Assembly: GCA_009840005.1 (NCBI GenBank)
Contig: VXOR01000061.1
Coordinates: 148,853-212,852, forward strand
Direction: 5' to 3'
DNA: 64,000 nt
DNA from: Gemmatimonadota bacterium
GTDB taxonomy: Bacteria > Latescibacterota > UBA2968 > UBA8231
Each line of letters opens with the position of its first letter. The first letter of the stretch is position 1. Shown piece by piece: positions 27,654 to 55,543 of this stretch. A program made the position numbers and the translations under genes. Under the pieces are notes generated by a model that was not told the DNA's origin, searched no databases, and saw only the letters and a list, made by a program, of their open reading frames with translations.

Positions 27654-27980
27654 ATGCCTGTAATGCCCCCCATTCATCCGGGAGAGATTTTGCTCGAAGA
27701 GTTCCTCGAGCCCTTAGGTTTGAGCCAATATCGCCTGGCAAAGGACATCTCGGTCCCTCCACGCCGAATTAACGAGATCGTTCATGGCCAGCGCGCCATT
27801 TCCGCAGACACGGCTCTTCGACTATCTCGCTACTTCGGCACCACCGATCGATTCTGGCTCAATCTGCAGACGCGCTACGATCTGGAGCTGGAGAAAGATC
27901 GCTTGGGTGAACGATTGGAGGCGGAGGTACTATCGCTACGGAGCCAATGCGATGAGCGGCACCCTAGGAATCCTCACTAA
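27654..27980 (+). CDS. higA: HigA-like antitoxin (HTH-XRE) with aberrant C-terminus
   Basis: Residues 1-90 are a standard HigA: HPGEILLEEFLEPLGLSQYR, LAKDISVPPRRINEIVHGQR, then the FWLNLQTRYDLELEKDRLGE helix. AGGAGG lies 6 nt before the ATG. The normal family ending would be near EAEV (residue 92). Here the frame continues for about 16 more residues because its 3' end is joined at about 27930 to a duplicated piece of another locus (the CocE 5' region). The protein probably still neutralises HigB and represses the operon through the operator upstream, but the C-terminus was reshaped by the rearrangement. Confidence 0.85.
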   Translation: MPVMPPIHPGEILLEEFLEPLGLSQYRLAKDISVPPRRINEIVHGQRAISADTALRLSRYFGTTDRFWLNLQTRYDLELEKDRLGERLEAEVLSLRSQCDERHPRNPH

Positions 27981-28041
27981 TCCCGACGTCCACATGGCGG
28001 CGCACGTATTCCGCCCCAACGCCGCTGGCCGATTCGACATC
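27938..28041 (+). pseudogene. 5' fragment of a CocE/NonD hydrolase gene (duplicate of 32641-32780)
   Basis: The first 22 bp (27938-27959) are identical to 32641-32662, spanning the end of an upstream frame (T-E-P-M-R-stop) and the ATGAGC start. The frame then reads MSGTLGILTNPDV, followed by HMAAHVFRP and AGRF. Against the intact gene it lacks about 7 codons (QVLMRDG) and stops matching after about 35 codons. The frame itself runs on to 28104 with unrelated residues. It overlaps the altered 3' end of higA. A dead remnant, not a gene. Confidence 0.8.
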
Positions 28042-28085
28042 AAAGCACTCATAGAAAAAGAGAAGGGTGAGAAGACCAGCCCGGC

Positions 28086-32576: not shown

Positions 32577-32654
32577 GCGGCCTAAAAAAATGTTCAACAG
32601 TAAGATGCTTTCCGGCAATGACCTGCTCGGGACCATCGAGACGGAGCCAATGCG

Positions 32655-34358
32655 ATGAGCGGTGCCCTAGGAATTCTCACCGAACCCAATGTTCAAGTGC
32701 TGATGCGCGACGGCGTCCACATGGCGGCGCACGTGTTCCGCCCCGACGCCGACGGCCGATTTCCCGGAATCCTGCTGCGCACCCCGTACGACCGCCCAAA
32801 GTCTGGATTCGAGCGATACGTGCGCGCGGGATACGCCGTCGTCTCCATGGACTCGCGCGGCCGCTACGGCTCCGCAGGCGACTGGGTGCCGTTCACCGAA
32901 GAGCACACGGGCGACGCCGAGGACGGCTACGACTCCGTGGAGTGGTTGGCGGCACAGCCTTGGTGCGACGGCAACATCGGCACCCTCGGTGCCTCGTACA
33001 ACGCCTATATGCAGTGGCAGCTAGCCAAGCTGCGCCCCCCGCATCTGGTAGCCATGTGCGCGTACACCATCCCCCTAGAATTGACCGAAGTCGATTGGCC
33101 GGGTGGATTCCGGCCGGGACGACGCATCAAGTGGTGGCTCACCTCCATGGCACCGGACTTGCGCCGCCGCCACGGACTGCCGCCGCCGCACACGCCAGAG
33201 CAAGCGCGACAGGAGTGGGACAAGATCGCCGGCGAAGGCCACTGGATCGGCTACCTGCCGTGGCTCGACTTCACCCGCCACCTACCACCGGGACTGGCGG
33301 AGTACGCAAAGGACTGGCTCGAGCACCCGCACCGGCGGGCCTGGAAGTTCGACGAGGTGCACAAGGAAGTAGCCGTGCCAAACCTCGACTTCAGCGGCTG
33401 GTACGATCATTGCAACGGCTCAATACAGCACCTACAGCTCATGCAGCGCCACGGTCGCACCGAGCGGGCGCGGTCGCAGACGAAGCTGATCGCCGGCCCG
33501 TGGAATCACCCGAGCCTCGGCAGCCGCATAGTAGCCGGGTTCGACTTCGGGCCACAAGCCGGTCTCGACCTGCCGGACCTAATCATTCGCTGGTTCGACC
33601 ACTGGCTCAAGGGGATCGACAACGGCGTCGATCGCGAGCCAGCAGTGCGCTATTTCGCAATGGCCGGACGGCAGGGCCAATGGCGCTCGGCCGACACTTG
33701 GCCGCCAGCGGACACAACGCCCCGTGAGTACCTGTTGAGCAGCGATGGCGACGCCAAGTTCGGCGGTTCCGGCCGACTGTCGATCAACGGCGGGCACACC
33801 AACGCCGAGGCCGACCGCTTTGACTACGATCCCCACAATCCCGTGCCGACGCTGTGGACGCGAGAGTGGTTCACAGGGCCAGCAGACCGCCGCCGACTGG
33901 AAGGGCGCGACGACATCCTCTGCTACCGCTCGGAACCGCTGACTGACGCCGTCGAGATCGCCGGTTATCCAGAAGTCGTGCTCTTCGTCAGCTCGTCGGC
34001 ACCGGACACGGATTTCTTCGCGCGGCTGGTGGACGAGCACCCGTCCGGCGGCCCAGCACCGGAAATGTGCTACGGCATGGTGCGCACCCGCCACCGCAAC
34101 TCCCTCGACGTCGAAGAACTGCTGACGCCCGGAGACGTGGTGGAACTCCGCATCCGCATGGGGCCGACGGCCTGCCGCTTTGAGCCGGGTCACCGCATCC
34201 GCCTAGAAATCACGTCGAGCGACTTCCCCAACCACGACCGCAATCACAACACCGGCAAAAACGACCTAGCCGACCCCGAGCTAGTCGTGGCGACCAACGC
34301 CGTGCATCACTCGGCAGTCCATCCCTCGCGACTCGTGCTGCCTGTGTCTGGGGAGTGA
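32655..34358 (+). CDS. CocE/NonD family hydrolase (X-Pro dipeptidyl-peptidase S15 type)
   Basis: A 567-residue alpha/beta hydrolase. The nucleophile elbow is GASYNAY (S in G-x-S-Y) after NIGTLGAS. Earlier blocks are ILLRTPYDRPKSGFERY, GYAVVSMDSRGRYGSAGDW and the W-x3-Q region. The C-terminal jelly-roll has FEPGHRIRLEITSSDFPNHD, as in the X-Pro/CocE C-terminal domain. Such enzymes hydrolyse acyl esters or X-Pro peptides. No signal peptide is seen, so it is cytoplasmic. The ATG overlaps a short upstream frame's stop (CGATGA); the first 22 bp around that junction are repeated at 27938. Confidence 0.87.
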   Translation: MSGALGILTEPNVQVLMRDGVHMAAHVFRPDADGRFPGILLRTPYDRPKSGFERYVRAGYAVVSMDSRGRYGSAGDWVPFTEEHTGDAEDGYDSVEWLAAQPWCDGNIGTLGASYNAYMQWQLAKLRPPHLVAMCAYTIPLELTEVDWPGGFRPGRRIKWWLTSMAPDLRRRHGLPPPHTPEQARQEWDKIAGEGHWIGYLPWLDFTRHLPPGLAEYAKDWLEHPHRRAWKFDEVHKEVAVPNLDFSGWYDHCNGSIQHLQLMQRHGRTERARSQTKLIAGPWNHPSLGSRIVAGFDFGPQAGLDLPDLIIRWFDHWLKGIDNGVDREPAVRYFAMAGRQGQWRSADTWPPADTTPREYLLSSDGDAKFGGSGRLSINGGHTNAEADRFDYDPHNPVPTLWTREWFTGPADRRRLEGRDDILCYRSEPLTDAVEIAGYPEVVLFVSSSAPDTDFFARLVDEHPSGGPAPEMCYGMVRTRHRNSLDVEELLTPGDVVELRIRMGPTACRFEPGHRIRLEITSSDFPNHDRNHNTGKNDLADPELVVATNAVHHSAVHPSRLVLPVSGE

Positions 34359-36218: not shown

Positions 36219-36260
36219 GGTCTCCTCCAGCGTTTTGGGTGGGATTTTACTATCGCGTAC

Positions 36261-36416
36261 CTAAGTACCCGACAGTAAATCGGTATGGGATGCTTCGCTT
36301 CGCTCAGCATGACAACATGAGCGTCAACACCTGTCATGCTGAGCGGAGCGAAGCGGAGTCGAAGCATCTCAGCTCTCCCATGCCGAACATCCATTGGATT
36401 ACTGTCGTATACTTAG
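36261..36416. mobile_element. MITE-like element, family 1 (156 bp), with degenerate 9-bp target duplication
   Basis: The ends CTAAGTACCCGACAGTAA and TTACTGTCGTATACTTAG are inverted repeats, the same length and layout as the copy at 12809-12964. Flanking 9-mers ATCGCGTAC and GTCGCTTAC agree at seven positions. The copy ends 14 bp from the sulfatase stop and is oriented between two minus-strand genes. Confidence 0.82.
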
Positions 36417-36430
36417 GTCGCTTACTTAGC

Positions 36431-37905: not shown

Positions 37906-38067
37906 CTGGTGTTGCGCATTGTCTTGCCAGTGTGCTAGCATTGGTAAGTATAGAGATGCTTCGACTCCGCTTTGCTCCGCTCAGCATGACCTAGGTAGCA
38001 AGACATCAGCACCGTCATGCTGAGCGAAGCGAAGCATCTCATACCTAGGGCCTGTGCGTAACATCAG
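37906..38067. mobile_element. MITE-like element, family 2 (162 bp), with exact 8-bp target duplication
   Basis: The ends CTGGTGTTGCGCA and TGCGTAACATCAG are inverted repeats. TTAGGTCA is duplicated at 37898-37905 and 38068-38075. The right duplicate supplies the TAA stop of the GH2-like gene. The interior carries the same palindrome arms (AGATGCTTCGACTCCGC, AGCGAAGCGAAGCATCT) as family 1. Confidence 0.83.
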
Positions 38068-40164
38068 TTAGGTCAAATGCAGCGTCACCGACTGAACGTG
38101 GTCGTATCCACCCGGCGCGCGAATCGGCTGCCGCTGGCTCTCGACATCCACGCTTGCACCCTGACAGGTAAAGCGGTACGCACCCGCTTCGGGCAACACA
38201 AACCACGACGTACCCGCCAGATCGGCCCGCACGGCATAGGGCAGGACCGCCTGTCCATCCAGTGGAATCACCAAAACACAGGCGCGGGCGACCGGTTGCC
38301 CGTCGCGCATCACCCGCACCAGCACCTCCGGCAATCGCTCCTGCGCCAGCGGCCCCACATCCCGCCCAGCGAGCCGGCGGAACAACTCCTGCGACCAAGC
38401 CGTCGTCGCCGTTGGGCGCGAGACCGGCTGCTGCGGGTCGCACCAATTGAGACACAGCCGGTGCTTGCCCCACGCCGCCGGCGTCCCCACGCCAAAAGGG
38501 TCAATGCGGGCGTCCGCCCCCGACTGCGACGGCCATGTGACCTCCATGTCGAGCGGTCCGGCCAACATCCCCGGCACGTGGTCGGTAAAGCCTCGGTAGT
38601 CCATGTCGGCGAGGAAAAACGTCTGTAACCCGTGTATATTGCGCTCCGGCATTGAAGTCAAAAATTCCCCCCAGCCTTCCCCCAGTGGTGGCTCCTCCTG
38701 CTCTCCCCAAGAGCCCCCCGCGAAGATGCCCGCCTCACCGACCCGGATCGGTTTCACTGGGAGGCCGCTGCGAATCGCATCAATGCTCGCCTCGATGCTC
38801 TCCAAGCTACTGAACAGCCGATAGCAATCAATCAGCTCAATCAGCTCGTCCGTAGCCACAGACGGGTCAAACGTAACTTCGGCGATGCGGCTGTCGTCGA
38901 GTTCCTTCACCTTGCGCAGCAGAGGCACGCAGTATTCGGGCTCTCTCGCGTCCGTGATGTCCCAGAACAGGATCGACGGATGGTTGCGGACCGAGCGAAT
39001 CCAGTAGTCGGCCACCGCTAGCTGGTACTCCCTTACCAGCGCCTTCTCCCGCACGTCCATCTCCGGCGTGTACACCTGTCCCGTACCAACGCAAAAGTTG
39101 GCACCCACCACGAACACGCCAAGCTCGTCGGCCACGTCGTAAAACACCGGCGGCGGATCGTAGCGGTGGTGCTCGACAATGCTGACGTTGGCCTCGGCCA
39201 GATCGACGAACTTCCGCGTCAGCCACTGGCGCTCGTACACGTACGGCACCGTGTGGTCGCCCCAAGGCATTAGCTGAATGCCGTTGAGCAGCAGCCGATC
39301 CCTCTCGGCCCAGATCTCGCGGAAACCAAAGCGAGTCACAGCAGTATGCAACGTGCGACCTGCCGAGTGCAGCGAACTTTCGAGAAAGTATAGAACCGGC
39401 TCGCCGTACGGCGGACGACCCCACAGCACGGCGTCGCCCCAAGGCGCTGTGGTCTCTAGGCGACGGCTCTCTCCCGGTGCCAGATCAAGATCGCAACCTG
39501 CGAGTTCCAACTCGGTCTCGCCCGCACGGCGCACCCGCAGGCGAATGTCGCCGCAGAACGCTTCCTCGGCATCATTGCGAACGGTCAACCCAACGCGGAT
39601 TTCGCGCTCTCGCACCGACGTGACGATCTGCACATCCTCGACCCGCACCCGCGACTCCCAACTCAGCCACACATCCGACTCCATGCCAACGGTGGCAGCG
39701 CTCGTGTACCAGAAGCGAGTGTCGAGGGCTTTTTCCGCTTCTTCACTCAGCCGTGAGGCGTCGGGATGCGCATAGCGGCCGCTACAGTTGTGAGTGAACA
39801 CGTCGAGCCGGTAATCGCGCCCCGGACGAATGCCATCGGTCAGGTCAATGCGCCAAGGCAATCTCATGCCGTAGTGCTCGCCGAGCACTTCACCGTCGAG
39901 ATAAGCGCGCCCAAAGTGACGGACCCTCCCTAAGTCAAGCACGATGCGCCCGTCTGCATCCCAGCCGTCGGGCAGGCGCAGTTCCGTGCGGTACCAACCG
40001 GACTCGGGCGGATCATCTTCAAACTCGCGCGATCGATGCGGCACGCGCACGCGCTCCCAGCCGTCGATCGGCGGATCGCCGTCGGGCCCCTCGGCAAACT
40101 CCCACTCGCCGTTCAGCAGCAGGCGGACATCGCCGCTCGTCCCCAGTGGCGATTGGTAGAACAT
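38068..40164 (-). CDS. Glycoside hydrolase family 2-like protein
   Basis: A 698-residue protein with GH2 architecture: a sugar-binding jelly-roll (LLNGEWEFAEGPDG, WYRTELRLPDGW), an immunoglobulin-like domain (VWLSWESRVRVEDVQIVTSV), then a TIM barrel (LLLNGIQLMPWGDHTV, HHRYDPPPVFYDVADELGV). The usual acid/base block N-H-P-S-x-x-x-W-x-x-x-N-E reads NHPSILFWDITDA, so the catalytic Glu is absent. A candidate nucleophile remains in VGEAG. It could be inactive, or use another acid. No signal peptide. The stop codon lies in a mobile element's target duplication. Confidence 0.78.
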   Translation of the reverse strand: MFYQSPLGTSGDVRLLLNGEWEFAEGPDGDPPIDGWERVRVPHRSREFEDDPPESGWYRTELRLPDGWDADGRIVLDLGRVRHFGRAYLDGEVLGEHYGMRLPWRIDLTDGIRPGRDYRLDVFTHNCSGRYAHPDASRLSEEAEKALDTRFWYTSAATVGMESDVWLSWESRVRVEDVQIVTSVREREIRVGLTVRNDAEEAFCGDIRLRVRRAGETELELAGCDLDLAPGESRRLETTAPWGDAVLWGRPPYGEPVLYFLESSLHSAGRTLHTAVTRFGFREIWAERDRLLLNGIQLMPWGDHTVPYVYERQWLTRKFVDLAEANVSIVEHHRYDPPPVFYDVADELGVFVVGANFCVGTGQVYTPEMDVREKALVREYQLAVADYWIRSVRNHPSILFWDITDAREPEYCVPLLRKVKELDDSRIAEVTFDPSVATDELIELIDCYRLFSSLESIEASIDAIRSGLPVKPIRVGEAGIFAGGSWGEQEEPPLGEGWGEFLTSMPERNIHGLQTFFLADMDYRGFTDHVPGMLAGPLDMEVTWPSQSGADARIDPFGVGTPAAWGKHRLCLNWCDPQQPVSRPTATTAWSQELFRRLAGRDVGPLAQERLPEVLVRVMRDGQPVARACVLVIPLDGQAVLPYAVRADLAGTSWFVLPEAGAYRFTCQGASVDVESQRQPIRAPGGYDHVQSVTLHLT

Positions 40165-40270
40165 GCTATCCCTCTCTTCTTCTCTTGAGTGGATGTATGG
40201 ACTAAGGATATGCCAAAATGTTAGTGAATGGACGGCAAAAGCTACTGGGCATTAGTTGGTTGGTCAATTA

Positions 40271-40342: not shown

Positions 40343-40352
40343 TAACCCTTAC

Positions 40353-41598: not shown

Positions 41599-41614
41599 TC
41601 CAGCCTGTAAGCAA

Positions 41615-41692: not shown

Positions 41693-43552
41693 TCATGGAC
41701 TGATCGACAGGGGCGCGGATGGCCCTTGTCCACTGGCCGGCTCCAGTCGGATAAAAGTCTTCAACAACTCCCATTGCCAAGAGTGCGGGAAGCCGTAAGG
41801 GTCTTGCTGACTCGGCCAGCCAGTCCAGCGGGTAGTGTTGCAAGGATAGCGGATAATTAGCTGCGCTAGGAAAATGTCGGGCAACTCCCCCACCCAGATC
41901 TCCATCGCCTCGCTGAACAACTCCAACAGTTCCTCGTCGCCAACCTGTAGAGGCGCGATGCGCTCGACAATGCGATCGAACTCCTCGTTGCGCCAGCGCG
42001 AGGTGGTTGACCACAGCGGCACCGGCTGCCCCGTGGGCCGGAAGTACTGCGAGGTGTAGTAAGACAACATCAGGTAGGGATCCATGCCGCGCACCCCACT
42101 CGGCCCCTTGCACCCCAAGGAAACCTTCTGCTCCCCCGTCTGCACGAGCGAAGTCAAGCCGGGCGAAGTGTCAAAATTCGCATCAAAACCAGCGTCGCGT
42201 AGCTGTTGCGTCAGCGGCGGACCGTAAGCCCGCAACCACTGCGGCACGTACATGGCAATCTCGACGCGCTCGCCCTCCGCATTGACCCACAAGCCCTCCT
42301 CATCCTTGCGATAGCCTTTCCCCTCCATGATCCGATTTACTTCTTCCAAGTGCGGCTTGGAATCGTACCCGTGCCGCGCGAGGATCTCCTGCAGAGCCTC
42401 GTCAAAAGGCGCGAACCATTCGTAGGGCGTGAAGGGATGCAGCGCGACCACACCCGCTCCCGACTCGGCTAGCTGGACGAGTTTTTCCCGATCGATGGCC
42501 ATGCTGATCGCCCGGCGAATCTGCGGATCGTCAAAGGGCGGCTCCGAGCAGTTCATGTTGAGGTCAATCGGACACCAGTCCAAGTAGCCGTAGGGCGGCT
42601 GCCGACCGGCAAAGGTCACGACCCGCGCATTGCGCTCTAACACGCTTTCGAGGGTGAGCACCTGCATGATGGGTGCCATGTCGAGCTGATCGGTCAGCAG
42701 CAGTTGCGCGGCCTGACTCTCCTCCTGCTGCGGCACGTAGATGATGCGCTGGATTCGCGGCAGCCGCTTAAACCCCATCCTAGCCCCCCACCAGTCCTGG
42801 CGCAAATCGTATATCTTCTGGTACGGAGAAGCGTACACCAAGCGGTAGGGGCCCGTGCCCAAAGGCAAGCCGCCCTCGATGTCGTGGAAGGTGAACTCTA
42901 GCGGATCCTGGTCTTTCCATATATGCTCGGGCAAGACGAAGATGCCGTGGTTGCTGCTCAGCGTGGTCGCCCAAAACGCCGGCCCCGCCTTTTTCAACAC
43001 CAACCGCACGGTGTGATCGTCAACGACCTCAGTGGAGTCAAAAAACTCGGGCAGGTCGGCCAGATGCACCATGGACGCGGCGTGATCGCGCAGCATGTCA
43101 AAGGTGAATGCCACGTCGCGCGCGGTGAACGGGACGCCGTCCGCCCATTCAATGCCCTTGCGAATCTTCACGGTGAGCACGGTAAAGCTATCGTCGTACG
43201 CCCAGCTTTCGGCCAGCCAGTTCTCGTATTCCCCAGTGAGCACATTGTACATAATCAGCGGCTCGAACACCGCTGGCAGCGTACCCATGTGGAATCCCTG
43301 ATCGGAGCCGGGGATGTAGGGATTCTGATTGTCGAACAGGGAATACTGGTTCGGCCCGCCGTTCATCAAGATCATGGTGCGGTCCCGAGGGACGTCGTCC
43401 AGCACCACAGCCGGCCCGCAGCTAGCCAAAATTGCACACGCCACAAGGATGGCATTCAAGGGCGACCCAACCAACAGGCGAATAACATGTAGGGGTGACC
43501 GGCCGGTCGCCCCTACGAACGAAATCAAATGCCTCCAGGCCATCCCTCTCAT
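41693..43552 (-). CDS. ABC transporter substrate-binding lipoprotein, peptide/nickel/opine type (SBP family 5)
   Basis: A 619-residue protein. The lipobox LASC (cysteine near residue 45) predicts a lipoprotein after an unusually long N-region. Family-5 blocks are present (AVFEPLIMYNVLTGEYENWL, AESWAYDDSFTVLTVKIRKG, WADGVPFTARDVAFTFDML). ATG 43552 has GGAGGGTGAACG, and GGAGG lies inside the end of the upstream ATPase gene. A GTAGGGG palindrome is embedded in frame in the signal region. Last gene of a dehydratase-Opp operon. Substrates of this family include oligopeptides and oligosaccharides; the dehydratase at the head of the operon favours a sugar-related ligand. Confidence 0.87.
   Translation of the reverse strand: MRGMAWRHLISFVGATGRSPLHVIRLLVGSPLNAILVACAILASCGPAVVLDDVPRDRTMILMNGGPNQYSLFDNQNPYIPGSDQGFHMGTLPAVFEPLIMYNVLTGEYENWLAESWAYDDSFTVLTVKIRKGIEWADGVPFTARDVAFTFDMLRDHAASMVHLADLPEFFDSTEVVDDHTVRLVLKKAGPAFWATTLSSNHGIFVLPEHIWKDQDPLEFTFHDIEGGLPLGTGPYRLVYASPYQKIYDLRQDWWGARMGFKRLPRIQRIIYVPQQEESQAAQLLLTDQLDMAPIMQVLTLESVLERNARVVTFAGRQPPYGYLDWCPIDLNMNCSEPPFDDPQIRRAISMAIDREKLVQLAESGAGVVALHPFTPYEWFAPFDEALQEILARHGYDSKPHLEEVNRIMEGKGYRKDEEGLWVNAEGERVEIAMYVPQWLRAYGPPLTQQLRDAGFDANFDTSPGLTSLVQTGEQKVSLGCKGPSGVRGMDPYLMLSYYTSQYFRPTGQPVPLWSTTSRWRNEEFDRIVERIAPLQVGDEELLELFSEAMEIWVGELPDIFLAQLIIRYPCNTTRWTGWPSQQDPYGFPHSWQWELLKTFIRLEPASGQGPSAPLSISP
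43489..43516. repeat. REP-like palindrome inside the signal-peptide region
   Basis: GTAGGGGTGACCGG and CCGGTCGCCCCTAC pair along 14 bp with one G-U type mismatch. On the minus strand it encodes VGATGRSPLH within the N-region of the lipoprotein. Confidence 0.7.
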
Positions 43553-45615: not shown

Positions 45616-46469
45616 GACGAGACCTTCCATATACGCGGATTGGCAATGCGATCCAATCCCATGGAGACGAGGAACAAACCGAGGAAAATCAGCACGATCA
45701 TCGCAATCGGCGGTGCCCACCACCACCACATTCCCCGCAGCAGCGAAGTGTAGTACAAAGCCCAGTAAATGGTCATCCCAAGCGTAGGCTCATTCTGCGG
45801 CCCCAAGCCCAGCGCCTCTAAACCAATCGAAGCCAACACCGCCGCACCCACGGCACTGACAAAGCTGGCCGCCAGATAGGGCAGCAGATTCGGCAGCAGC
45901 TCGCGGGCGATGATTTCCAAGTCCCTCATGCCGGAAAGCCGCGCCACCTGCACGTACGCGCGCTCGCGCATCGACAGCACCTGCGAGCGAATCGTGCGCG
46001 TCGGCAGCATCCACGCCAACGAGGCCACCACGAGAGCCATCATATCGACCGTAACAGCCGTGCGCAGCGAAGTCGCCAGCACCACTAAGAACAGCAGGCC
46101 GGGCACAGTCAGCAGCACGTCGGCAGCACCCCGAATCAAGGTGTCCACCAAACCGCCAAAGTACCCAGCGAGAAAGCCAAGGATAATACCGATACCAAGT
46201 CCCACGGCACCGGCGAGGAAGCCGATCCTAAGCGTAAGTGGCGTACCTGCCACCATCACCGCGAGCAAATCCCGCCCCGCCGCATCCGTGCCGAGCAGGT
46301 GCTCCAGCGACGGCGACAGATTCGGCTCAGCCGCACCGACGCGAGCCAAATCCGTATCGACGAACAGGGTTCCTACCGGACCAAAGGCGAGCACGACAAA
46401 GACGACGATTAAACCAGCCGTAAGCTGGGGATGGCGGCGCACCGCCGCGAAGATCGGCGAGAGCGTCAT
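45612..46469 (-). CDS. Opp-type ABC permease subunit (OppC/DppC-like)
   Basis: The start is ATG 46469, overlapping the preceding stop (ATGA), giving 285 residues. It has six predicted helices, LGTDAAGRDLLAVMVAGTPL near the start (the family's GTD-x-x-GRD block), and an EAA-like loop QVARLSGMRDLEIIARELLP contacting the ATPases. Inner membrane. The stop overlaps the OppD-like start. The 22 bp around its start are duplicated at 47943-47964, upstream of the inserted ATPase gene. Confidence 0.9.
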   Translation of the reverse strand: MTLSPIFAAVRRHPQLTAGLIVVFVVLAFGPVGTLFVDTDLARVGAAEPNLSPSLEHLLGTDAAGRDLLAVMVAGTPLTLRIGFLAGAVGLGIGIILGFLAGYFGGLVDTLIRGAADVLLTVPGLLFLVVLATSLRTAVTVDMMALVVASLAWMLPTRTIRSQVLSMRERAYVQVARLSGMRDLEIIARELLPNLLPYLAASFVSAVGAAVLASIGLEALGLGPQNEPTLGMTIYWALYYTSLLRGMWWWWAPPIAMIVLIFLGLFLVSMGLDRIANPRIWKVSS

Positions 46470-46478
46470 CGGCGGTAG
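46457..46478. repeat. Direct repeat, copy next to intact oppC-like start
   Basis: A 22-bp sequence identical to 47943-47964. Read on the minus strand it contains Y-R-R-stop overlapping ATGACGCTCTCGC, the first codons of the permease. Similarity extends weakly upstream: the ATPase frame ends LDVDCPYGDPPMDYRR, while the OppB-like protein ends LDLVYPLLDPRIAYRR. Confidence 0.85.
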
Positions 46479-47821
46479 TCCATGGGCGGATCGCCGTAGG
46501 GACAATCCACATCGAGCAGAAAACGCCAAGCAGCGACGACCTCGATTGTACCGGTATTAACAACAATGCGTTCCCCTTCGCCGCGGCTAGCAGGTCCACC
46601 ACGAGTCACCAAGACACCCGTTGCCAAGTTTAGTTCGCCCATAGCGTCGCGCAGTGCAGCCACTTCCCGTTGCTTGGTCCGCGGGTCTGCAAGGGACTCG
46701 CAGACCTGGATCAATAGGCGCGAGCCGTCGCCCATGCGAGCGACGAAATCCACTTCGCGACCGGCCTTCGACTTGTAGTAGAAAATCTCGGGAGTAGCTC
46801 GGCGGAGCGCCGTGAACACGAGATTTTTGAGCAGATGGCCGGTATTTACGAGGATGCCAGAGGAGACCGATTCGACCAATGCGTGATCGACGCAGTAGAT
46901 TTTCTTGGGGTTCGCGTTGGCCCGCGCCAAGGATGCGTCAAATACGCGCACCGTGAACAGGAAGAACGCATCCTCGAACCAGGTCAGATAGGAGGAGACC
47001 GCCGACTTCGGGGCGCGATAGCCGAGTGACTTCAAGTAGCCAGTAAGGCGGTTGACCGAGTACAGAGACGCAATGTTTTCTACCAGCCAGTGAGCCAGCT
47101 CCGAGACCGCTCGGGGATGGGAGATGTCGTGCCGTTCAATGAGGTCGCGGAACAGTAGCGCACCCCAATACTCTTGATGCGTTTTGATCCGCAGCCGGCG
47201 GTCGAAATCCGCAACCTCCGGGAATCCGCCACGCTCCCAGTACTGATCGAATCCTTTCTGGATCAACAGGCGTCGCCGGGCGGACCAAGGACCGGCACTG
47301 TCTATGCCCTTGCAGTCGAGGAACTCGCGAAACGAGAAGGGAAACAGTTCCCAAGAAAGTGCCCGTCCGCGCATCTGCGTCGCGATTTCCCGAGACAGCA
47401 TCTGCGCCGACGAGCCAGTGATGTACACCTCGCACTTCTCGGTGCGCATGATCCGGTCCACAAAAGACTCCCAACCGGGTACGACCTGAATCTCGTCGAA
47501 AAAGCAATGGACCGTCTGTGTGTTCTTTTTTTCCGGGTAGAGCGAATAGTATGTCTCCATCACAGCGGACAGCCCATCGCGTTGCAGGAAATGCAGGCGG
47601 TCGTCGAAGAAGTTCAGGTACAGGATGTTGTCGCGGGATGTACCAGCGTCGAGTAGCTTGCAGATCAACTGGAACAGCAAGGTGGATTTTCCACTGCGTC
47701 GCGGACCGATGCAGACCATTGCCTTCCCCGGCACCGTACTTACTGCGACCCGTCGCGGAACGCCGGTTACCAGCGTTTCCTCCTGAAAGTCTAGGATGAT
47801 TTCCTTTAGCACATCCATCAT
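46466..47821 (-). CDS. AAA ATPase with DUF4143-type C-terminus, inserted in the opp operon
   Basis: A 451-residue protein. Walker A is GPRRSGKST (residues 39-47), Walker B is VHCFFDEIQ, sensor ITGSSAQML, then a PD-(D/E)XK-like C-terminal region (IFYYKSKAGREVDFVARMG) as in AAA_14/DUF4143 proteins. Their role is unknown; they are frequent accessory genes in mobile surroundings. The natural end of the family is near AAWRFLLD; the final 15 residues look like the tail of an OppB protein, acquired at the insertion. An AT-rich leader with a palindrome precedes it. It separates the OppB-like and OppC-like genes and is bounded by a 22-bp direct repeat. Confidence 0.87.
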   Translation of the reverse strand: MMDVLKEIILDFQEETLVTGVPRRVAVSTVPGKAMVCIGPRRSGKSTLLFQLICKLLDAGTSRDNILYLNFFDDRLHFLQRDGLSAVMETYYSLYPEKKNTQTVHCFFDEIQVVPGWESFVDRIMRTEKCEVYITGSSAQMLSREIATQMRGRALSWELFPFSFREFLDCKGIDSAGPWSARRRLLIQKGFDQYWERGGFPEVADFDRRLRIKTHQEYWGALLFRDLIERHDISHPRAVSELAHWLVENIASLYSVNRLTGYLKSLGYRAPKSAVSSYLTWFEDAFFLFTVRVFDASLARANANPKKIYCVDHALVESVSSGILVNTGHLLKNLVFTALRRATPEIFYYKSKAGREVDFVARMGDGSRLLIQVCESLADPRTKQREVAALRDAMGELNLATGVLVTRGGPASRGEGERIVVNTGTIEVVAAWRFLLDVDCPYGDPPMDYRR

Positions 47822-47859
47822 AATGCGATAGCAGTCAATTTTATTTCTGATTTTACAAT

Positions 47860-47885
47860 AAACTGGACATAAAAATTACCAGTTT
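47860..47885 (-). promoter_or_regulatory. Inverted repeat upstream of the AAA ATPase gene
   Basis: AAACTGG (47860-47866) and CCAGTTT (47879-47885) are separated by 12 AT-rich bases, 39-64 nt before the start codon. It is probably an operator or part of the module's own promoter; the surrounding sequence is AT-rich, unlike the operon. Confidence 0.5.
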
Positions 47886-47942
47886 GAAATATAATTGGCA
47901 ACTAGTACCACCGATAAAACCCATCGTTGTCCGGATATAGGT

Positions 47943-47964
47943 GCGAGAGCGTCATCGGCGGTAG
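47943..47964. repeat. Direct repeat, copy at the end of the oppB-like gene with a truncated oppC start
   Basis: Identical to 46457-46478. Here the ATGACGCTCTCGC start runs into unrelated sequence and stops after 15 codons (MTLSHLYPDNDGFYRW), so it is a dead copy of the permease 5' end. Confidence 0.85.
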
Positions 47965-48953
47965 GCAATGCGCGGGTCGAGGAGCGGATACACCAAGTCG
48001 AGAATCAACGTCACCACGGCGATGGCCAAGATGACCATAAGCACGACGCCGTAAATGACAAAGTAGTCAAAGGTCTGCACGGCGCGATACAGCACCGTGC
48101 CCACGCCCGGGTACGCGAACACTACCTCCACCAATACAGCCCCAGACACCACGTAGCCCATGGCCAGCGCCAAAGCCGTAGTCTGTGGCAACAGCGCGTT
48201 GCGCAGGGCATAGCGAAAGAAAATGTCGCGGCTCTTCAAGCCCCGCGCCTCGGCGTAGTTGACGTAGTCCTCGCCCTGGACAGTCACCATCATGCCGCGC
48301 ATCGACAAAGCCCAAAACCCCACCGACGACAGCACAATCGACAAGGCGGGGACGATGGAGTGATAGAGTACGTCTAGGGCAAAGGCCAACGTCGGCCCTG
48401 GCAGTGTTCCCAAAGTGAAACCGCCTCCTAGTGGAAAGGCGCGCAGAGTAAAGCCCAAGAGAAAGACGAGAACTAGTCCGAGCAAGTAATAGGGAATCGC
48501 CGACAGCGCCAAGAAAGGCGCGGCAAAGTAGTGCAGAGCACCGGGTGATCGCGGCCAAGCCAGCAGCGCGCCGAGCACTGTGCCGAGGGCAAAGGCGATC
48601 AGCGTCGCCGTCGTCAGCAGCCCAAGCGTCCACGGCAAGGCGCGCATGATAATGTCGGAAGCGCGGCTCGGAAAGTTGGCAATGGAAACCCCGAAGTCGA
48701 GGCGCGCCACATCGCCTAAGTAGCGCAAATACTGCTTCCACAGGGGCTGGTCGAGACCAAAGCGGGCCTCGTACGTGGCCACCACGGCCTCCATGTCGGT
48801 CTTGCCCGCGCCGCCAAAGGAAACCGCCTGCAACAGACGCTCGCGGATGGGATTCACTGGGGCCATCCGAGGCATCAAGAAGTTAATGGTAGCCCCTGCC
48901 CACACGATCAGCAGGAACACCCCAAAGCGGCGAAAGACGTAATTAAGCGACAA
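47952..48953 (-). CDS. Opp-type ABC permease subunit (OppB/DppB-like)
   Basis: A 333-residue membrane protein starting at TTG 48953 (GGAG 9 nt upstream). The N-terminal VFRRFGVFLLIVWAGATINF helix, the periplasmic FGLDQPLWKQYLRYLG segment and the EAA loop YAEARGLKSRDIFFRYALRN are typical of OppB/DppB. It starts 6 bp after the dehydratase stop. Its stop originally overlapped the OppC-like start; the ATPase gene now intervenes. Confidence 0.9.
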   Translation of the reverse strand: MSLNYVFRRFGVFLLIVWAGATINFLMPRMAPVNPIRERLLQAVSFGGAGKTDMEAVVATYEARFGLDQPLWKQYLRYLGDVARLDFGVSIANFPSRASDIIMRALPWTLGLLTTATLIAFALGTVLGALLAWPRSPGALHYFAAPFLALSAIPYYLLGLVLVFLLGFTLRAFPLGGGFTLGTLPGPTLAFALDVLYHSIVPALSIVLSSVGFWALSMRGMMVTVQGEDYVNYAEARGLKSRDIFFRYALRNALLPQTTALALAMGYVVSGAVLVEVVFAYPGVGTVLYRAVQTFDYFVIYGVVLMVILAIAVVTLILDLVYPLLDPRIAYRR

Positions 48954-50096: not shown

Positions 50097-50237
50097 CGCT
50101 ACCTCCGCGTATATACGTGCGTCTGTCTGTATCTTCAATCAGCGAGAGGCATTTATACAGCCATTGAGTAAGGACAGATGCCTTATTAGATTGAACATGA
50201 CTCCAAAAACGCCGCCAATGTATCGCCTACCCCACCC

Positions 50238-50260
50238 CTCGTCAAGCTCTCTAGGAGACC
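50238..50260. repeat. Left direct-repeat copy of the phyH leader, upstream of the RHH/RelE module
   Basis: CGTCAAGCTCTCTAGGAGA (50240-50258) matches CGTCAAGCTCTCCGGGAGA (50834-50852) at 17 of 19 positions. The right copy contains the ribosome-binding region of the PhyH gene. The left copy leads nowhere. The rest of this 216-bp gap holds no other recognised feature. Confidence 0.6.
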
Positions 50261-50312
50261 TGACGCCGCTCGCGATGCTTTGACGTTTTAACGCTATGAG
50301 GTTATCGCCTTT

Positions 50313-50546
50313 ATGACTAATGCGACCAAACGAATCACCATCGACTTTGATCCTGCGCTTCACCGTGCCCTTCAGCGACAGGCCGCCGAAGCGAACCGGT
50401 CGATTTCCGCCTTGGTCAATGATGCAGTGAGGCGCACCCTAACCGAGGATGTCGAGGATTTGAGTGCCTTCGACGAGCGGGACGCCGAACCCAATTTGCC
50501 GTTTGAGGATGTCGTCAAAGATCTCAAGCGCAGTGGCAAGCTATAA
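50313..50546 (+). CDS. Ribbon-helix-helix antitoxin
   Basis: A 77-residue protein with an N-terminal ribbon-helix-helix (KRITIDFDPALHRALQRQAA, then NRSISALVNDAVRRTL) and an acidic C-terminus (DLSAFDERDAEPNLPFEDVV) that would wrap the toxin. It overlaps the RelE-like gene by 14 bp. Antitoxin and autorepressor roles are inferred from family. Confidence 0.85.
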   Translation: MTNATKRITIDFDPALHRALQRQAAEANRSISALVNDAVRRTLTEDVEDLSAFDERDAEPNLPFEDVVKDLKRSGKL

Positions 50547-50793
50547 AATTCAGATCAAGCCCTCTGCCGTACGGGAAATTGAGGCGATTCCCCAAAAGAA
50601 ACAACGCCAGCGCATCATTGCTCGAATTCGCGCCCTAACGGACAATCCCCGTCCACGAGGGGTTGAAAAACTCTCTGGACTGGACCGCTATCGAGTGCGA
50701 CAAGGAGCCTATAGAATCATTTATTCAATTGAGGACGATGCCCTAATCGTCTATGTCGTGAAGGTTGGTCACCGCAGTACTATCTATAGATAG
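50533..50793 (+). CDS. RelE/ParE-type toxin
   Basis: The start is GTG 50533, inside the antitoxin frame, giving 86 residues. The pattern is RelE-like: YKIQIKPSAVREIEAIPQKK, RIRALTDNPRPRGVEKLSGL, YRVRQGAYRIIYSIED, VVKVGHRSTIYR. Ribosome-dependent mRNA cleavage or gyrase inhibition are both possible in this superfamily. A weak hairpin with a T run follows. Confidence 0.87.
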   Translation: MASYKIQIKPSAVREIEAIPQKKQRQRIIARIRALTDNPRPRGVEKLSGLDRYRVRQGAYRIIYSIEDDALIVYVVKVGHRSTIYR

Positions 50794-50794
50794 C

Positions 50795-50814
50795 AAGAGC
50801 CAATCTCTTTTTTT
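50795..50814 (+). terminator. Weak terminator-like hairpin after the RelE-type gene
   Basis: AAGAG/CTCTT (5-bp stem, 5-nt loop) followed by further T residues. The stem is short and AT-rich, so termination is uncertain. Confidence 0.35.
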
Positions 50815-50858
50815 GCATCTTTAACTCATCCTCCGTCAAGCTCTCCGGGAGAACCGCC

Positions 50859-51692
50859 ATGATTCGCCTCAACCAACAGCAACTCAACTTTTTCGACACC
50901 TTCGGCTACCTCGCGCTGCCGGGGTTGATGGCCGACTGCATCAACGAGATCATCGACGCCTTCGAGCAGGTTTGGGCCGAGCGCGGCGGCGGCCACTACG
51001 GCCAACCGCACGACGGCGAACGGCGCTCCTGCATCGTGCCCTTCATCGATCAACACGAGCGCCTGTGCGCGCTGCTCGACGATCCGCGCATCGAGGGCTT
51101 GCTCGCCAGCCTGCTCGGCGACGACTTCAACTACAGCGGTTCCGACGGCAACTACTACGCCGGCGACACCCGGTGGCACTCCGACGGCTACCAGAAGGAA
51201 ATCCGCCACGTCAAGATCGCCTTCTACCTCGACCACCTGACCCGCGACACCGGCTGCCTGCGCGTGATCCCGGGCAGCCACCGCCGCGGCGACCAGTACG
51301 CCGAGACGCTTGAAGCGAACGTCAAGCAATCGCAGGAGCAATGGGGCATCTCCGGCGACCAAGTCCCAGCCGTCGCGCTCGAAATCGTCCCCGGAGACGT
51401 CGTCGTCTTCCAGCACAACCTCAAACACGCAGCTTTCGGTGGCAGTGGCCGTCGCCGCATGTTCACCATCAACTGCATGGTGCGCGTGCCCGACGAGCAG
51501 ATCGACCTCGTCAAACAAGACATCGCCGGACTAGCCCGCTTCTGGGCGGAGCGCGCCTACGGCGAGAAGATGATCGCCACGGCGAGCGAACGCCGCATGG
51601 TGCACCTCGAACAGCGCATGGCCAACGACGGCCACCTCAAAGAACTAGCGGCGAAGGCGCGGGCCGAGATGCCCGAGCCTTCGCGGGGCTAG
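50859..51692 (+). CDS. Phytanoyl-CoA dioxygenase (PhyH) family protein
   Basis: A 277-residue Fe(II)/2-oxoglutarate oxygenase. The facial triad is visible as WHSDGY (H-x-D) and the distal H in VVFQHNLKHAAFGG, with R-R following for 2-oxoglutarate binding. YLDHLTRDTGCLRVIPGSH is the usual block between them. The substrate is unknown; this family is greatly expanded in Latescibacteria and Poribacteria. CGGGAGAACCGCC precedes the ATG. Before a WD40-protein gene was inserted it was probably followed directly by the sugar isomerase gene, whose 5' fragment still lies 7 bp downstream. Confidence 0.88.
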   Translation: MIRLNQQQLNFFDTFGYLALPGLMADCINEIIDAFEQVWAERGGGHYGQPHDGERRSCIVPFIDQHERLCALLDDPRIEGLLASLLGDDFNYSGSDGNYYAGDTRWHSDGYQKEIRHVKIAFYLDHLTRDTGCLRVIPGSHRRGDQYAETLEANVKQSQEQWGISGDQVPAVALEIVPGDVVVFQHNLKHAAFGGSGRRRMFTINCMVRVPDEQIDLVKQDIAGLARFWAERAYGEKMIATASERRMVHLEQRMANDGHLKELAAKARAEMPEPSRG

Positions 51693-51759
51693 GAAAATCA
51701 TGAGCGACCACTACGAATTCAAGATGGGGATGTACCTCGGCGAGCTGCAGTAGCCCTTC
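51682..51759 (+). pseudogene. Truncated 5' copy of the downstream sugar isomerase gene
   Basis: This 78-bp stretch matches 54599-54676 with a few differences. It reads MSDHYEFKMGMYLGELQ from ATG 51700 and stops at TAG 51751, where the intact gene has CAA. The shared part includes the AGGAAAATC ribosome site and begins in the last codons of phyH. It is the left border of the inserted WD40-protein gene. Confidence 0.85.
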
Positions 51760-51839
51760 AGTGTAAAAAATGCAATAGGCTCTCGCACGTATTCGACGTA
51801 TATTGGACGTTTACCTGTTCTGTTTCAGGAGGAACCCCC

Positions 51840-54554
51840 ATGAAAAGCCTCGTTTTCCATCTTGCGCTAATCGGCTTCGTGCTCTCGCCGTTGACGACCG
51901 CTCACGCGTCGCCCCCGCCGTTAGACCGAAGGCATGGCTCTGCGCCGTTTGAGCACGATCACCCCCACCCGCACCCGGCAGCCAAGCAACTGGCCGCGGC
52001 CGATTTGGACGCGGGCGAACCGCGCACGGTGCGGACAATCTACTTCACGCCCAAAGACCGGTCCTATAACTCTCAAGCCGTTACTCAGATTAAAAAAGAC
52101 CTGCGCAAGGCCCAAGCCTTCTTTGCCGAGCAGATGCAGGTGCACGGGTACGGCAACAAGACCTTCCGCTTTGAGACCGATGCCCAAGGGGAGCCACTAG
52201 TACATCGCGTCGATGGGCAACGCCCTGAGAGCTACTATTTCCTCAACGGAGTTTTACAGGGTTTTCACGCTGAGGAAGTTGAAAAGGCAATGTCTGATCT
52301 TAGTGAGGACATTTATGATGAGAACATTTATGTCTTCTATTCTGACCTTTCTGTTGAGAGTCCTAACGTCACTGGGTATAGAAGATCGAAAAGGGGTGGC
52401 GATGTAGATTACCCTTTTACAAACTATCGGGATTTGGAGTGGCAAACCCTCGCCCACGAACTGGGACATGCGTTCGGTTTGGGGCACGATTTTCGCGACC
52501 GTGCATACATCATGTCCTATGGCCCGGGACTGAATCAGTTATCGGCGTGCTCCGCCCAATTCCTATCCGCACATCCCTACTTCGATTCGGCCATTCCCCT
52601 TGAAGATGTGTCGCCGCCTCGCATCAGCATATTGTCGCCGACCCGGTATCCGCCCGGCTCCAGTACTATTTCCATCCAACTCAAAATCAGCCACTCAGTC
52701 GAGCTGCATCAAGTGATTGTAAAAAACGGAATCGATGTTGTGACGTGGCAAGAGCTCGATGGCAAGGACGCCACTGTTACGTTCGACTACGATGGTTTTT
52801 TTGCTAGCACTGGCTTTCGCAGTCTGCCCGATGTTGTCGCCCATCCAATTTTTATCGAGGTCATTGATACCAAGGGAAATATGACCTCGAGAGAATTCCG
52901 GCATGGGGAGAAGTCGCCACACCTGATTACCACCTTGCAAGAAGAGCCACTGCCGCCGGGGGTCCATCTTTGGCCGAAGGTGTTGTTTTCCCCCGACGGC
53001 AAAACCTTGGTGTCTTTTGGGGAGCAGATCACCCTGTGGGATGTAGCGACCTTAACGAGGACCGCCATCTTTTACGCGCATGACTATTGGGTCGGTTCAG
53101 TGTCGTTTTCCCCCGACGGCAAAACCCTAGCCTCTACTGGGATTTACGATAAGGCAATCAAGCTGTTTGATGTTGTGGCCCACAGGCATATCGCCACGCT
53201 CCGCCATAGTAATACAATCCTAAAGGTGTCGTTTTCCCCCGACGGCAAAACCCTAGCCTCTGGCAACACCGACGAGATCACCCTGTGGGATGTCGCGACC
53301 CGAACGAAAACCGCCACCTTGGACCCGCCGGCGGGGCATTCGGCCTGGGATAACCGGATTGATTTGCTGTCGTTTTCCCCCGACGGGAGCATCTTGGCCG
53401 CCGCGTCCCCAACGAGTACGATCGCACTATGGGATATGGCAACTCGAACGCGAATCAAAAGGTTCCCCAATGAGCATCAAATCGTTGCGTTGTCGTTTTC
53501 GCCCGACGGGAGCATCTTGGCCTCTGGGCAAGCCGGTGGCGATGTTTACCTGTGGGACGTCAAGGGCCAGAAACAGCAGATAGGTGGTTGCGACCATGCA
53601 GGGGAGATCAGCTCGGTGGTATTTTCCCCCAACCAAGACTTCTTCGTCACCGCCGGGACCGACGGCGAGGTCTTCCTGTGGGATACCGATACCCAAGAAA
53701 CTGTGGCCATTTTAGCCCAGATAAGTCCGGTTGCAGCGGTGTCATTTTCTCCCACCCAAAACATCATGGTCTCCTCAGAGGAAGGTAGCCAGCTGTTCTT
53801 GTGGGATATGTCCGAGTGGCTCGGGGGTAGTCCGCCCACGCTGCCGAAAACCTCCGGCGGAGCCGATAATCCCGTCATTGTCCAAACCCTATCCGAACAA
53901 ACCGCCGATAGCTCCGACGATAGCTCCGACGATAGCTCCGTCAATGTCCGAGCCACATCCGACCTAACCGCAGACACGGCCTATGAGGTGACCGAAGCTA
54001 AGTTAAAACATGGGGTCGGGGTCGCCCTATATCTCAGCTCTACCTACGAATACGAACCATCCATAGAGAGCATCCCAGAGGCGGTGACCGTATCCGGCAT
54101 CCCGGGCGTAACCGTCTTCGGCTGGGGTCGTTTAAGCGACAGACGACTCATTGTTGACATAGGCTTCTCGGGCGACCTAGACAGCGACGCGGTGCTAACC
54201 TTTACCGTTGCCGCCGACGCCATCGCCGACTACGACGGCCCCCCATTCTCCGCACAAATTCCGGTCACCGCAAGCCAAGAAAACGCCCTTACGCCCAACT
54301 TCCCCAACCCATTTAACCCAGAGACCTATATCTCGTATCAGTTGGCCGAACCCAGCGAAGTTACGCTTACCATCTACGCCCTAAACGGACAGGTGGTGCG
54401 GCACTTGGTACAAGCCCATCAAGCCGCCGGGGCGCATGAAGCCTATTGGGATGGCCGCAGTGCATTCGGGCAGCCTGTCGCCAGTGGGGTGTATTTTTAC
54501 CGGTTGACCGCCGGCGATTTCACGGCGACGCGGAAGATGTTGATTCAAAAGTAA
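51840..54554 (+). CDS. Exported metzincin-like protease with WD40 propeller and type-IX/FlgD-like C-terminal domain
   Basis: A 904-residue protein. Signal peptide at residues 1-23 (ending TTAHA). The zinc site H-E-L-G-H-A-F-G-L-G-H is at 206-216, with a Met-turn-like YIMSYGPG about 20 residues later. A propeller of roughly seven WD40 repeats spans about 375-658 (repeated VSFSPDGKTLAS, TLWDVATRT). A Ser/Asp repeat (SSDDSSDDSS) and an Ig-like segment follow. The end (NFPNPFNPETYISYQLAEPS to SGVYFYRLTAGDF, residues 820-904) is a textbook FlgD/type A sorting domain. Probably secreted to the cell surface. AGGAGGAACCCCC precedes the ATG. It interrupts the phyH-isomerase pair. Confidence 0.85.
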   Translation: MKSLVFHLALIGFVLSPLTTAHASPPPLDRRHGSAPFEHDHPHPHPAAKQLAAADLDAGEPRTVRTIYFTPKDRSYNSQAVTQIKKDLRKAQAFFAEQMQVHGYGNKTFRFETDAQGEPLVHRVDGQRPESYYFLNGVLQGFHAEEVEKAMSDLSEDIYDENIYVFYSDLSVESPNVTGYRRSKRGGDVDYPFTNYRDLEWQTLAHELGHAFGLGHDFRDRAYIMSYGPGLNQLSACSAQFLSAHPYFDSAIPLEDVSPPRISILSPTRYPPGSSTISIQLKISHSVELHQVIVKNGIDVVTWQELDGKDATVTFDYDGFFASTGFRSLPDVVAHPIFIEVIDTKGNMTSREFRHGEKSPHLITTLQEEPLPPGVHLWPKVLFSPDGKTLVSFGEQITLWDVATLTRTAIFYAHDYWVGSVSFSPDGKTLASTGIYDKAIKLFDVVAHRHIATLRHSNTILKVSFSPDGKTLASGNTDEITLWDVATRTKTATLDPPAGHSAWDNRIDLLSFSPDGSILAAASPTSTIALWDMATRTRIKRFPNEHQIVALSFSPDGSILASGQAGGDVYLWDVKGQKQQIGGCDHAGEISSVVFSPNQDFFVTAGTDGEVFLWDTDTQETVAILAQISPVAAVSFSPTQNIMVSSEEGSQLFLWDMSEWLGGSPPTLPKTSGGADNPVIVQTLSEQTADSSDDSSDDSSVNVRATSDLTADTAYEVTEAKLKHGVGVALYLSSTYEYEPSIESIPEAVTVSGIPGVTVFGWGRLSDRRLIVDIGFSGDLDSDAVLTFTVAADAIADYDGPPFSAQIPVTASQENALTPNFPNPFNPETYISYQLAEPSEVTLTIYALNGQVVRHLVQAHQAAGAHEAYWDGRSAFGQPVASGVYFYRLTAGDFTATRKMLIQK

Positions 54555-54616
54555 TCGCGCCGGCTGAGCGACGGTTTGCGCGGCCACTTCAGCGATGGCG
54601 CGGGGATAGGAAAATC

Positions 54617-55543
54617 ATGAGCAATCAATACGAATTCAAGATGGGGATGTACCTCGGCGAGCTGCAGCAACCCTTCGAGCAATCGCTGGCCACGGCGCGC
54701 GACCTCGGCGCGCACTACGTCTGGTGCGGCACCCACTCCGACAATCGCAGCCTCTACGAGCTTGCTGACGCCGAGATAGACCAAGCCGCCGAACAGGTCG
54801 CTGCTCACGGTCTCGAGTTTTTTCTGCTCGACGGCGCGGGGTTGTTCAAGACAGTACACCTCGCCGAGCTTGAGCCGGGCAAGATGCTCGAACACGACCA
54901 ATTCAAGGATCATTTCACCAAGCTGGAACGAGCGATGGAAGTTTCAGCCCGCTTGGGGATCGGCGCTGTCGGCTGCAGCAGCTTCGCTTGGCCGGCCGAG
55001 TACACCGGCGGCAAGCCCACTTGGCCCATGCGCTGGGCAACGCGCGGCGGCATCATCTCCGACGGCGACATGGCCAAGCTCGTCGAGGCGTTCTCCATGT
55101 TCGCCGACCTCGCCGAAAAATACGACGTCGATGTCGCCTTCCTGATGATGCAGTGGAATTATGGCAACACCAGCCGCAACTTCCGCCGCATCGTCGAAGC
55201 CGTAGGCTCGCGGCGCTTCAAAGCGCTCTGGTGTCCGGCCGACAACTACAATTGCGGCGAAGTCGATAACGCCACCGCTGGCTTCGAAAACCTGCGCCCC
55301 TACCTGCACGGCGTCCACGCCAAGGATCTGCGCACCATAAACGGTTCAACGCTCGAATTCGAGTACACGCCCATCGGCGAGGGCCACGTCGATTACCCGA
55401 CGATCCTGCGCAACCTGCGCGACAACCGCTGCGACGTCGTCCTGTCGATCGCCACCCACTTCCTACCGGCAAGCGGCTCGCGGCTCGAAGCCATGCAGAC
55501 GAACTACGCCAACATCCGCAGGCTGATCGGCGAGTTGGCGTAA
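54617..55543 (+). CDS. Sugar phosphate isomerase/epimerase family protein (TIM barrel)
   Basis: The start is ATG 54617 (ATAGGAAAATC upstream), giving 308 residues. Blocks typical of the AP-endonuclease-2/xylose-isomerase-like barrel are GMYLGELQQPFEQSLATARD, the metal-ligand region ALWCPADNYNCGE, then HGVHAKDLRTING and YTPIGEGHVDYPTILRNLRD. It probably isomerises or epimerises a sugar or inositol derivative. Transcribed with the downstream domain-duplicated protein (29 bp apart). Its first 60 bp are duplicated at 51700-51759. Confidence 0.85.
   Translation: MSNQYEFKMGMYLGELQQPFEQSLATARDLGAHYVWCGTHSDNRSLYELADAEIDQAAEQVAAHGLEFFLLDGAGLFKTVHLAELEPGKMLEHDQFKDHFTKLERAMEVSARLGIGAVGCSSFAWPAEYTGGKPTWPMRWATRGGIISDGDMAKLVEAFSMFADLAEKYDVDVAFLMMQWNYGNTSRNFRRIVEAVGSRRFKALWCPADNYNCGEVDNATAGFENLRPYLHGVHAKDLRTINGSTLEFEYTPIGEGHVDYPTILRNLRDNRCDVVLSIATHFLPASGSRLEAMQTNYANIRRLIGELA

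Follow-up and report, generated by a model that had tools for sequence, protein, structure and literature searches.

Accessory genes between duplicated operon junctions in a Latescibacterota genus: probable insertions with long, variable target duplication

How can accessory genes enter tight operons and leave the genes on both sides unbroken? The question is raised by a 64,000-nucleotide stretch of a Latescibacterota contig (the window), in which, according to a preliminary description, extra genes lie four times between two direct copies of the same gene-gene junction. All four direct repeat pairs were found in the sequence where that description had placed them. The closest genomes to the window form one genus, whose habitat we take, from isolate names, to be sponge or sea water. 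We compared the window with six relatives from this genus (G001, G002, G004, G005, G008 and G011), and empty sites were read from alignments of the window with the syntenic stretches of these six genomes. Insertion held for three of the four cases (WD40, AAA and RHH/RelE, all with empty sites in relatives) and not for the fourth, which had been read as an insertion of DUF5916 and an ABC exporter. We interpret the three as insertions with long, variable target duplication, and we give this reading a probability of about 0.78.

Three loci and their empty counterparts

The features of the three loci are listed here with the evidence for each in brackets.

51682..51759, plus strand: upstream target copy, comprising the stop of phyH, the ATG of the isomerase gene and a dead 5′ fragment of that gene (repeat, relatives)
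51760..54598, plus strand: WD40 insert, 2,839 bp (alignment to relatives, Pfam)
54599..54676, plus strand: downstream target copy, running into the intact isomerase gene, AP_endonuc_2 (repeat, Pfam, relatives)
47943..47979, minus strand: target copy covering the oppB 3′ end (gene intact) and a dead 5′ fragment of oppC (repeat, relatives)
46494..47942, minus strand: AAA insert, 1,449 bp, with an AAA_14/DUF4143 gene (relatives, Pfam, PADLOC)
46457..46493, minus strand: target copy (oppB tail), running into intact oppC (repeat, relatives)
50233..50258, plus strand: left target copy in the phyH leader (relatives)
50259..50826, plus strand: RHH/RelE insert, 568 bp, a toxin-antitoxin module (relatives, Pfam)
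50827..50852, plus strand: right target copy, with 6 bp between its end and the phyH ATG (50859) (relatives)

Between phyH and the isomerase gene, the two 78-bp copies are 92% identical (self-BLAST E = 1e-25), and both map to one phyH-isomerase stretch of 77-78 bp in each of the six relatives. The insert holds one ORF of 904 amino acids (51840-54554), with a WD40 propeller and FlgD_ig detected by Pfam, and extends 80 and 44 bp past the ends of this ORF. An HExxHxxGxxH-type motif read from the sequence makes the product a putative metalloprotease. When a donor was sought in 60 genomes, the matches listed covered only parts of the insert, at about 66-79% identity.

At the oppB-oppC junction, the repeat (46457-46516/47943-48002) is 77% identical overall and 89% identical over its first 37 bp (self-BLAST E = 4e-6). 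The final 28 bases of the AAA_14/DUF4143 ORF (46466-47821) lie inside the duplicated oppB tail; the best PADLOC match of its protein is the candidate PDC-S01 (2.9e-99), and palindromes can be read in the insert upstream of the gene. The empty sites that the preliminary description had proposed to look for were present at both junctions, the phyH-isomerase junction being single in 6/6 relatives and the oppB-oppC junction in 5/6, where the overlap is 37 bp in G001, 60 bp in G002, 45 bp in G004, 35 bp in G005 and 37 bp in G011. The sixth relative, G008, carries a decayed AAA remnant with the same oppB-side breakpoint and a 28-bp repeat. The same AAA insertion is common to the window (46457-47979) and G008 (local 96278-96946) and is absent from closer relatives; this distribution, a point against the reading given above, suggests precise losses between the repeats, or transfer. 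A near-identical donor of the AAA insert was sought in 26 genomes and none was found, the G008 remnant sitting at the same site.

The RHH/RelE pair (50228-50258/50822-50852, 77% identity) is weak on its own because self-BLAST gives no match at 1e-3 (the three other pairs lie far outside chance), and the case is settled by the phyH leader of the six relatives, which contains the stretch once in all of them (26 bp in G001, G002, G004 and G005, 32 bp in G011, 14 bp in G008). The toxin ORF (50464-50793) corresponds to ParE_toxin in Pfam, its partner is putatively RHH-like, and the insert extends 54 and 33 bp past the toxin-antitoxin genes. RelE-type toxins act on RNA. A decayed toxin-antitoxin remnant is found in the phyH leader of another genome, G010, and relatives of the insert occupy different positions in G005 (85%) and G011 (83%). 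Both flanks of the G005 site (C1, near 3.43 Mb), whose repeat is much decayed, are present in six relatives: in G001, G010 and G011, which are empty, the overlap is 27-30 aligned bp, and in G002, G004 and G008 the flanks are separated by other sequence. At the G011 site, G001, G002 and G005 are empty; the flanks lie 1-4 bp apart there, so nothing was duplicated. Because the sequence outside the common core differs at all three insertions (window, G005 and G011), the ends of the toxin-antitoxin unit are not fixed. The duplicated junctions are unlikely to be an assembly artefact, as the pattern is also found in two chromosomes assembled into one contig each (G005 and G008).

Recurrence and placement of the duplications

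Unique repeat pairs of 25-300 bp, spaced 0.3-15 kb apart and at least 85% identical, were counted as direct versus inverted in a genus set of 1.62 Mb (seven sequences, window included). This set gave 30 direct and 0 inverted pairs; the 30 are not independent because the seven sequences are syntenic in part, and most are without empty-site proof, so that some may be intragenic or paralogous. Lowering the threshold to at least 75% identity gave 65 direct pairs and 1 inverted, and a looser count with low-identity pairs gave 73 direct versus 4 inverted, which is not our main figure because low-identity pairs may be tandem paralogues. The controls, small and of one genome each, gave 0 direct and 1 inverted pair in E. 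coli K-12 (0.35 Mb) and 7 direct and 3 inverted pairs in G028, from another family of the same class (0.40 Mb), both at the 85% threshold. As G028 is about equally dense in direct pairs (17.5 per Mb, against 18.5 per Mb in the genus), no genus-specific density is claimed.

Thirteen pairs passed an empty-site filter and eight were kept; five G002 pairs (53287 to 56123) were dropped as multi-copy, with a multiplicity of 11 to 38. Two of the eight unique pairs with an empty site in another genome are in the window and one is the G008 AAA site, and the toxin-antitoxin sites of the window and G005 are two more with an empty site beyond these eight. Recurrence of the pattern, a further point of the preliminary description, was supported, six further sites with empty counterparts being found in relatives. 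Sites in relatives include the following.

G002:C49:85688: 122-bp repeat, 2,277-bp insert; empty in the window, G001 and G011
G002:C49:41050: 46-bp repeat; empty in G011
G001:C25:103478: 133-bp repeat, type I restriction-modification; empty in G008
G001:C25:121757: 43-bp repeat; empty in G008
G008 local 182370: 232-bp repeat, DNA methylase and an unassigned convergent ORF; empty in G001

Duplication lengths are accordingly 26, 37 and 78 bp in the window and 43, 46, 122, 133 and 232 bp elsewhere. Other cargo at sites with an empty relative comprises an AAA-ATPase/PD-(D/E)XK protein in G001 and, in G002, a redoxin-like fragment and a beta-propeller protein. Restriction-modification cargo is in none of the three window cases and is represented by the type I system of G001 and the methylase of G008; a XamI-type system in G005 lies between 158-bp repeats, with no empty site among the sequences compared. 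No nuclease domain appeared among all 16 Pfam families matched by the G002 propeller gene, nor among the 25 of 48 Pfam families listed for the window WD40 gene.

The preliminary description had further proposed that start codons are targeted. A tally of the six sites at which genes could be placed (three further sites fall outside it) showed a start codon within the duplicated stretch at three, namely WD40, AAA and G002:C49:41050 (a mechanical ORF), and no start codon at the other three, namely RHH/RelE, G002:C49:85688 and G001:C25:103478, the last two covering gene 3′ ends. Start-codon targeting was therefore rejected as a general rule, and survival of intact neighbours accounts for the junctions. 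In a compact operon, an insertion whose duplication fell short of a gene boundary would break a gene, and duplications over a gene end, a leader or a stop-start overlap would keep intact copies of both neighbours. If only insertions with a boundary-spanning duplication persist in tight operons, the bias towards boundaries would need no targeting.

The spectrum of insertions was examined at 33 sites, each empty in no fewer than two relatives. At 5/33 (three in the window, the AAA site being counted twice) every comparison showed a duplicated stretch no shorter than 14 bp, 11/33 lay wholly within the range from an 18-bp overlap to a 30-bp gap, and 17/33 had at least one gap above 30 bp, the gaps being uncertain because intergenic sequence is divergent. 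Since only five sites show it in every comparison, long duplication is one of several insertion modes, and the presence of both overlaps and gaps fits two independent joining points better than a fixed staggered cut. One of the 17 larger-gap sites is window 40135-41739, a 1,603-bp segment where three relatives have about 80 bp, largely alignable among them; it contains an ORF with a 41-bp near-exact direct repeat (41047/41119).

Possible routes of insertion

What was observed directly is that the sites are empty in relatives, how long the duplications are, that the pattern recurs within the genus, and that one toxin-antitoxin module occupies three sites, its ends differing between them. On the reading that we prefer, a small DNA of one or a few genes would be joined to the chromosome at two separate target points, and the stretch between these points (about 26 to 232 bp) would end up on both sides of the insert. 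The joining would be illegitimate, with no dedicated recombinase. A staggered break filled by repair synthesis might produce it, or replication might change template to the incoming DNA and return to the chromosome at a position upstream of its exit point. The repeats would sit on gene boundaries because purifying selection retains the events that leave both neighbours intact, and addictive or defence cargo (toxin-antitoxin, restriction-modification) may aid retention. In line with this reading, matches to the competence family PF03772 occur in 9/11 genus genomes and matches to Ku in 0/11. A bolder extension is possible, and we regard it as doubtful: that this is a general active route in the genus, perhaps in the class, by which arbitrary small cassettes, restriction-modification genes being only some of them, are copied in with long target duplication, possibly through template switching fed by DNA uptake, and which may be a main source of gene-content turnover.

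The marked excess of direct over inverted pairs in the genus, and the tight fit of the WD40 and toxin-antitoxin inserts to their genes (80/44 bp and 54/33 bp), would also be expected if a dedicated mobility enzyme, acting in trans and making widely staggered cuts, inserted the cassettes. Such an enzyme is nevertheless unlikely, since the ends of the same module differ across three insertions, the repeats range from 26 to 232 bp, and the 11 inserts tested lack a significant terminal inverted repeat (11/11; the AAA insert has the lowest shuffle fraction, 0.075) as well as an obvious shared end motif (compared by score, no control). No transposase or integrase occurs among the Pfam families listed for the scanned ORFs of the three window inserts, and no tRNA was found in the 64-kb window, so for the ORFs, the window and the 11 inserts examined the preliminary description was right that transposase, tRNA and standard inverted repeats are missing. 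A mobile element with fixed ends was rejected on the same inverted-repeat result and on the varying module ends.

Campbell integration, in which a circle bearing the cargo and part of the junction undergoes a single crossover with the chromosome and excision between the repeats would restore the circle, would yield exactly the observed anatomy, and the lack of the AAA insert in close relatives would fit such excision. The origin of the copies bears on this route. Copies of the three window cases resemble alleles of the local junction, and at 3 of the 10 positions where the WD40 or AAA copies differ, the variants are also found segregating in relatives, as holds for the sole differing site (1/122) of the 122-bp pair of G002, the most recent of the clear cases. 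These matches to variants of other strains agree with Campbell integration, the evidence from the WD40 and AAA pairs being mixed; because of them, the copies may have been touched by allelic recombination or may stem from two parents. However, the 122-bp stretch is present once in each of eight other genomes, the window's included (the closest 97.5% identical to copy A), and the variant combination common to both G002 copies is in 0/8 of them, which argues that the duplication was made from local sequence and makes import of a foreign junction unlikely there. With the toxin-antitoxin module at unrelated sites also against it, we consider Campbell integration unlikely. An earlier statement from three genomes, that two of the 122-bp variants are private to G002, was withdrawn with eight genomes: single variants are shared, the combination is not. 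Among 26 genomes there was no near-identical donor of the G002 insert that lies between the 122-bp copies. A donor with intact flanks was not found.

Recombination between paralogous operons, which was the main alternative in the preliminary description, or tandem duplication followed by deletion, is very improbable. The low-identity direct pairs probably do include tandem paralogues, and one copy at the fourth locus looks like a fragment from an S15 locus; yet the relatives show one junction with the boundaries of the repeat and no trace of a second operon, and the copies resemble the local allele. The fourth locus has these features.

27926..28034, plus strand: fragment similar to an S15 peptidase gene in its leader and 5′ end, adjoining HigBA (repeat, relatives)
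32629..32761, plus strand: intact S15 peptidase gene, leader plus 5′ end (Pfam, relatives)

This pair is 81% and 90% identical in two blocks (self-BLAST E = 6e-16), and HigB and HTH domains were detected by Pfam in the HigBA module next to the 27926 copy. No empty site for the pair exists among the sequences compared. G002 and G005 are without HigBA and the 27926 copy here, yet have the sequence that follows the copy (28033-28066), and G011 has HigBA without the copy. DUF5916 and the ABC exporter vary separately among relatives, G011 and G005 being without the exporter and G001 having both genes with 1.4 kb more between them. The 27926 copy was rejected as a target duplication, as it does not bracket an insertion with its 32629 partner; it is probably an S15-type leader fragment carried along with the HigBA module. 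A third copy of the leader tail of this pair, at 56468-56499, precedes a 540-aa ORF without Pfam match.

Capture of fragments at staggered breaks by Ku/LigD end joining, whose fill-in before joining would give variable duplications, is hardly credible, since Ku (PF02735) is present in 0/11 genus genomes (single-contig G005 and G008 included, the window's own genome being outside the set), in a search that gave matches in B. subtilis and 3/15 other relatives. RNA-mediated insertion, an idea drawn from the gene-sized inserts, is disfavoured by the G008 insert with two convergent ORFs and by the palindromes upstream of the AAA gene.

Relation to described systems

The cases represent a real, recurrent insertion mode of a known type whose mechanism is poorly understood. 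Accessory genes between direct target copies, relatives with only one copy, duplications that are long and differ in length, and no transposase or terminal inverted repeats in the inserts and ORFs examined are all shared with insertion with long target duplication, which is reportedly the subject of Nobusato et al. 2000 (Gene 259:99) and Furuta et al. 2010 (NAR 38:2428). Described in 2000, this mode has been told mainly for restriction-modification genes. In the relevant passages of PMC3031569, which cites Nobusato 2000 and Furuta 2010, all restriction-modification types are said to be able to insert with long, variable target duplications; the part of PMC1643837 concerned with H. pylori reports the pattern as frequently tied to restriction-modification genes, and the corresponding text of PMC3874152 puts the duplications on the order of 100 bp, besides noting units whose duplications are short. 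Our cases differ from the published ones in the phylum, in repeats of 26-232 bp, and in WD40 and beta-propeller cargo. One hypothesis, as a section of PMC11708052 puts it, is that the restriction enzyme attacks the target, with replication breaks as the alternative. If the propeller cases share the published mechanism, a restriction enzyme opening the target, as set out in that section, is not the whole story, because the propeller cargo has no detected nuclease. As some cargos are without a visible nuclease domain, the cargo need not open the target, a conclusion that rests on the G002 propeller and window WD40 genes.

IS elements and composite transposons likewise have a direct target duplication, but here the duplication is long and variable, and no transposase or terminal inverted repeat was found in the inserts tested. 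In integrase islands a site-specific recombinase acts at an att site, which is often a tRNA, and rebuilds the target gene. Our cases share the restoration of the downstream gene through the duplicated piece; unlike those islands, they show no integrase in the scanned insert ORFs and no tRNA in the window, and their targets differ per case. In a eukaryote, passages of PMC2869330 describe transposed Arabidopsis genes flanked by direct repeats, which in some cases exceed 30 bp and often match the orthologous target site, and discuss circle (Campbell) integration. There, according to the same passages, the repeat is sometimes also at the parental site, whereas no parental site was found here. A limited search, with most subscription journals outside it, found no report of insertion with long target duplication in Latescibacterota. 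What is new is the phylum, together with propeller cargo in which no nuclease domain was detected. With its many cases, some closed genomes and cargo lacking a detected nuclease, this lineage makes it possible to ask whether it is the cargo or the host that produces the duplication, and it shows how tight operons can take up genes and stay unbroken.

Other features of the sequences deserve mention. A 1,919-bp segment of the window (22806-24724), with a BglII-type restriction endonuclease ORF (24219-24644) and an N6/N4 methylase (22996-23964), is absent from G001, G002 and G011, with an empty-site overlap of only 3 bp. Repeats of about 100-160 bp occur in both orientations at 4238-4393, 12806-12965, 36260-36419 and 37948-38045 of the window; they are partly self-complementary, some of the sites are without the repeat in relatives, and the family looks like a small non-autonomous mobile repeat. 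In G008, identical 193-bp direct repeats (L051/L052, local 55647-55839 and 61198-61390) lie 5.5 kb apart and flank an Omp85-like and a weakly solute-binding-like ORF, the right copy bordering a larger insertion of 11.6 kb.
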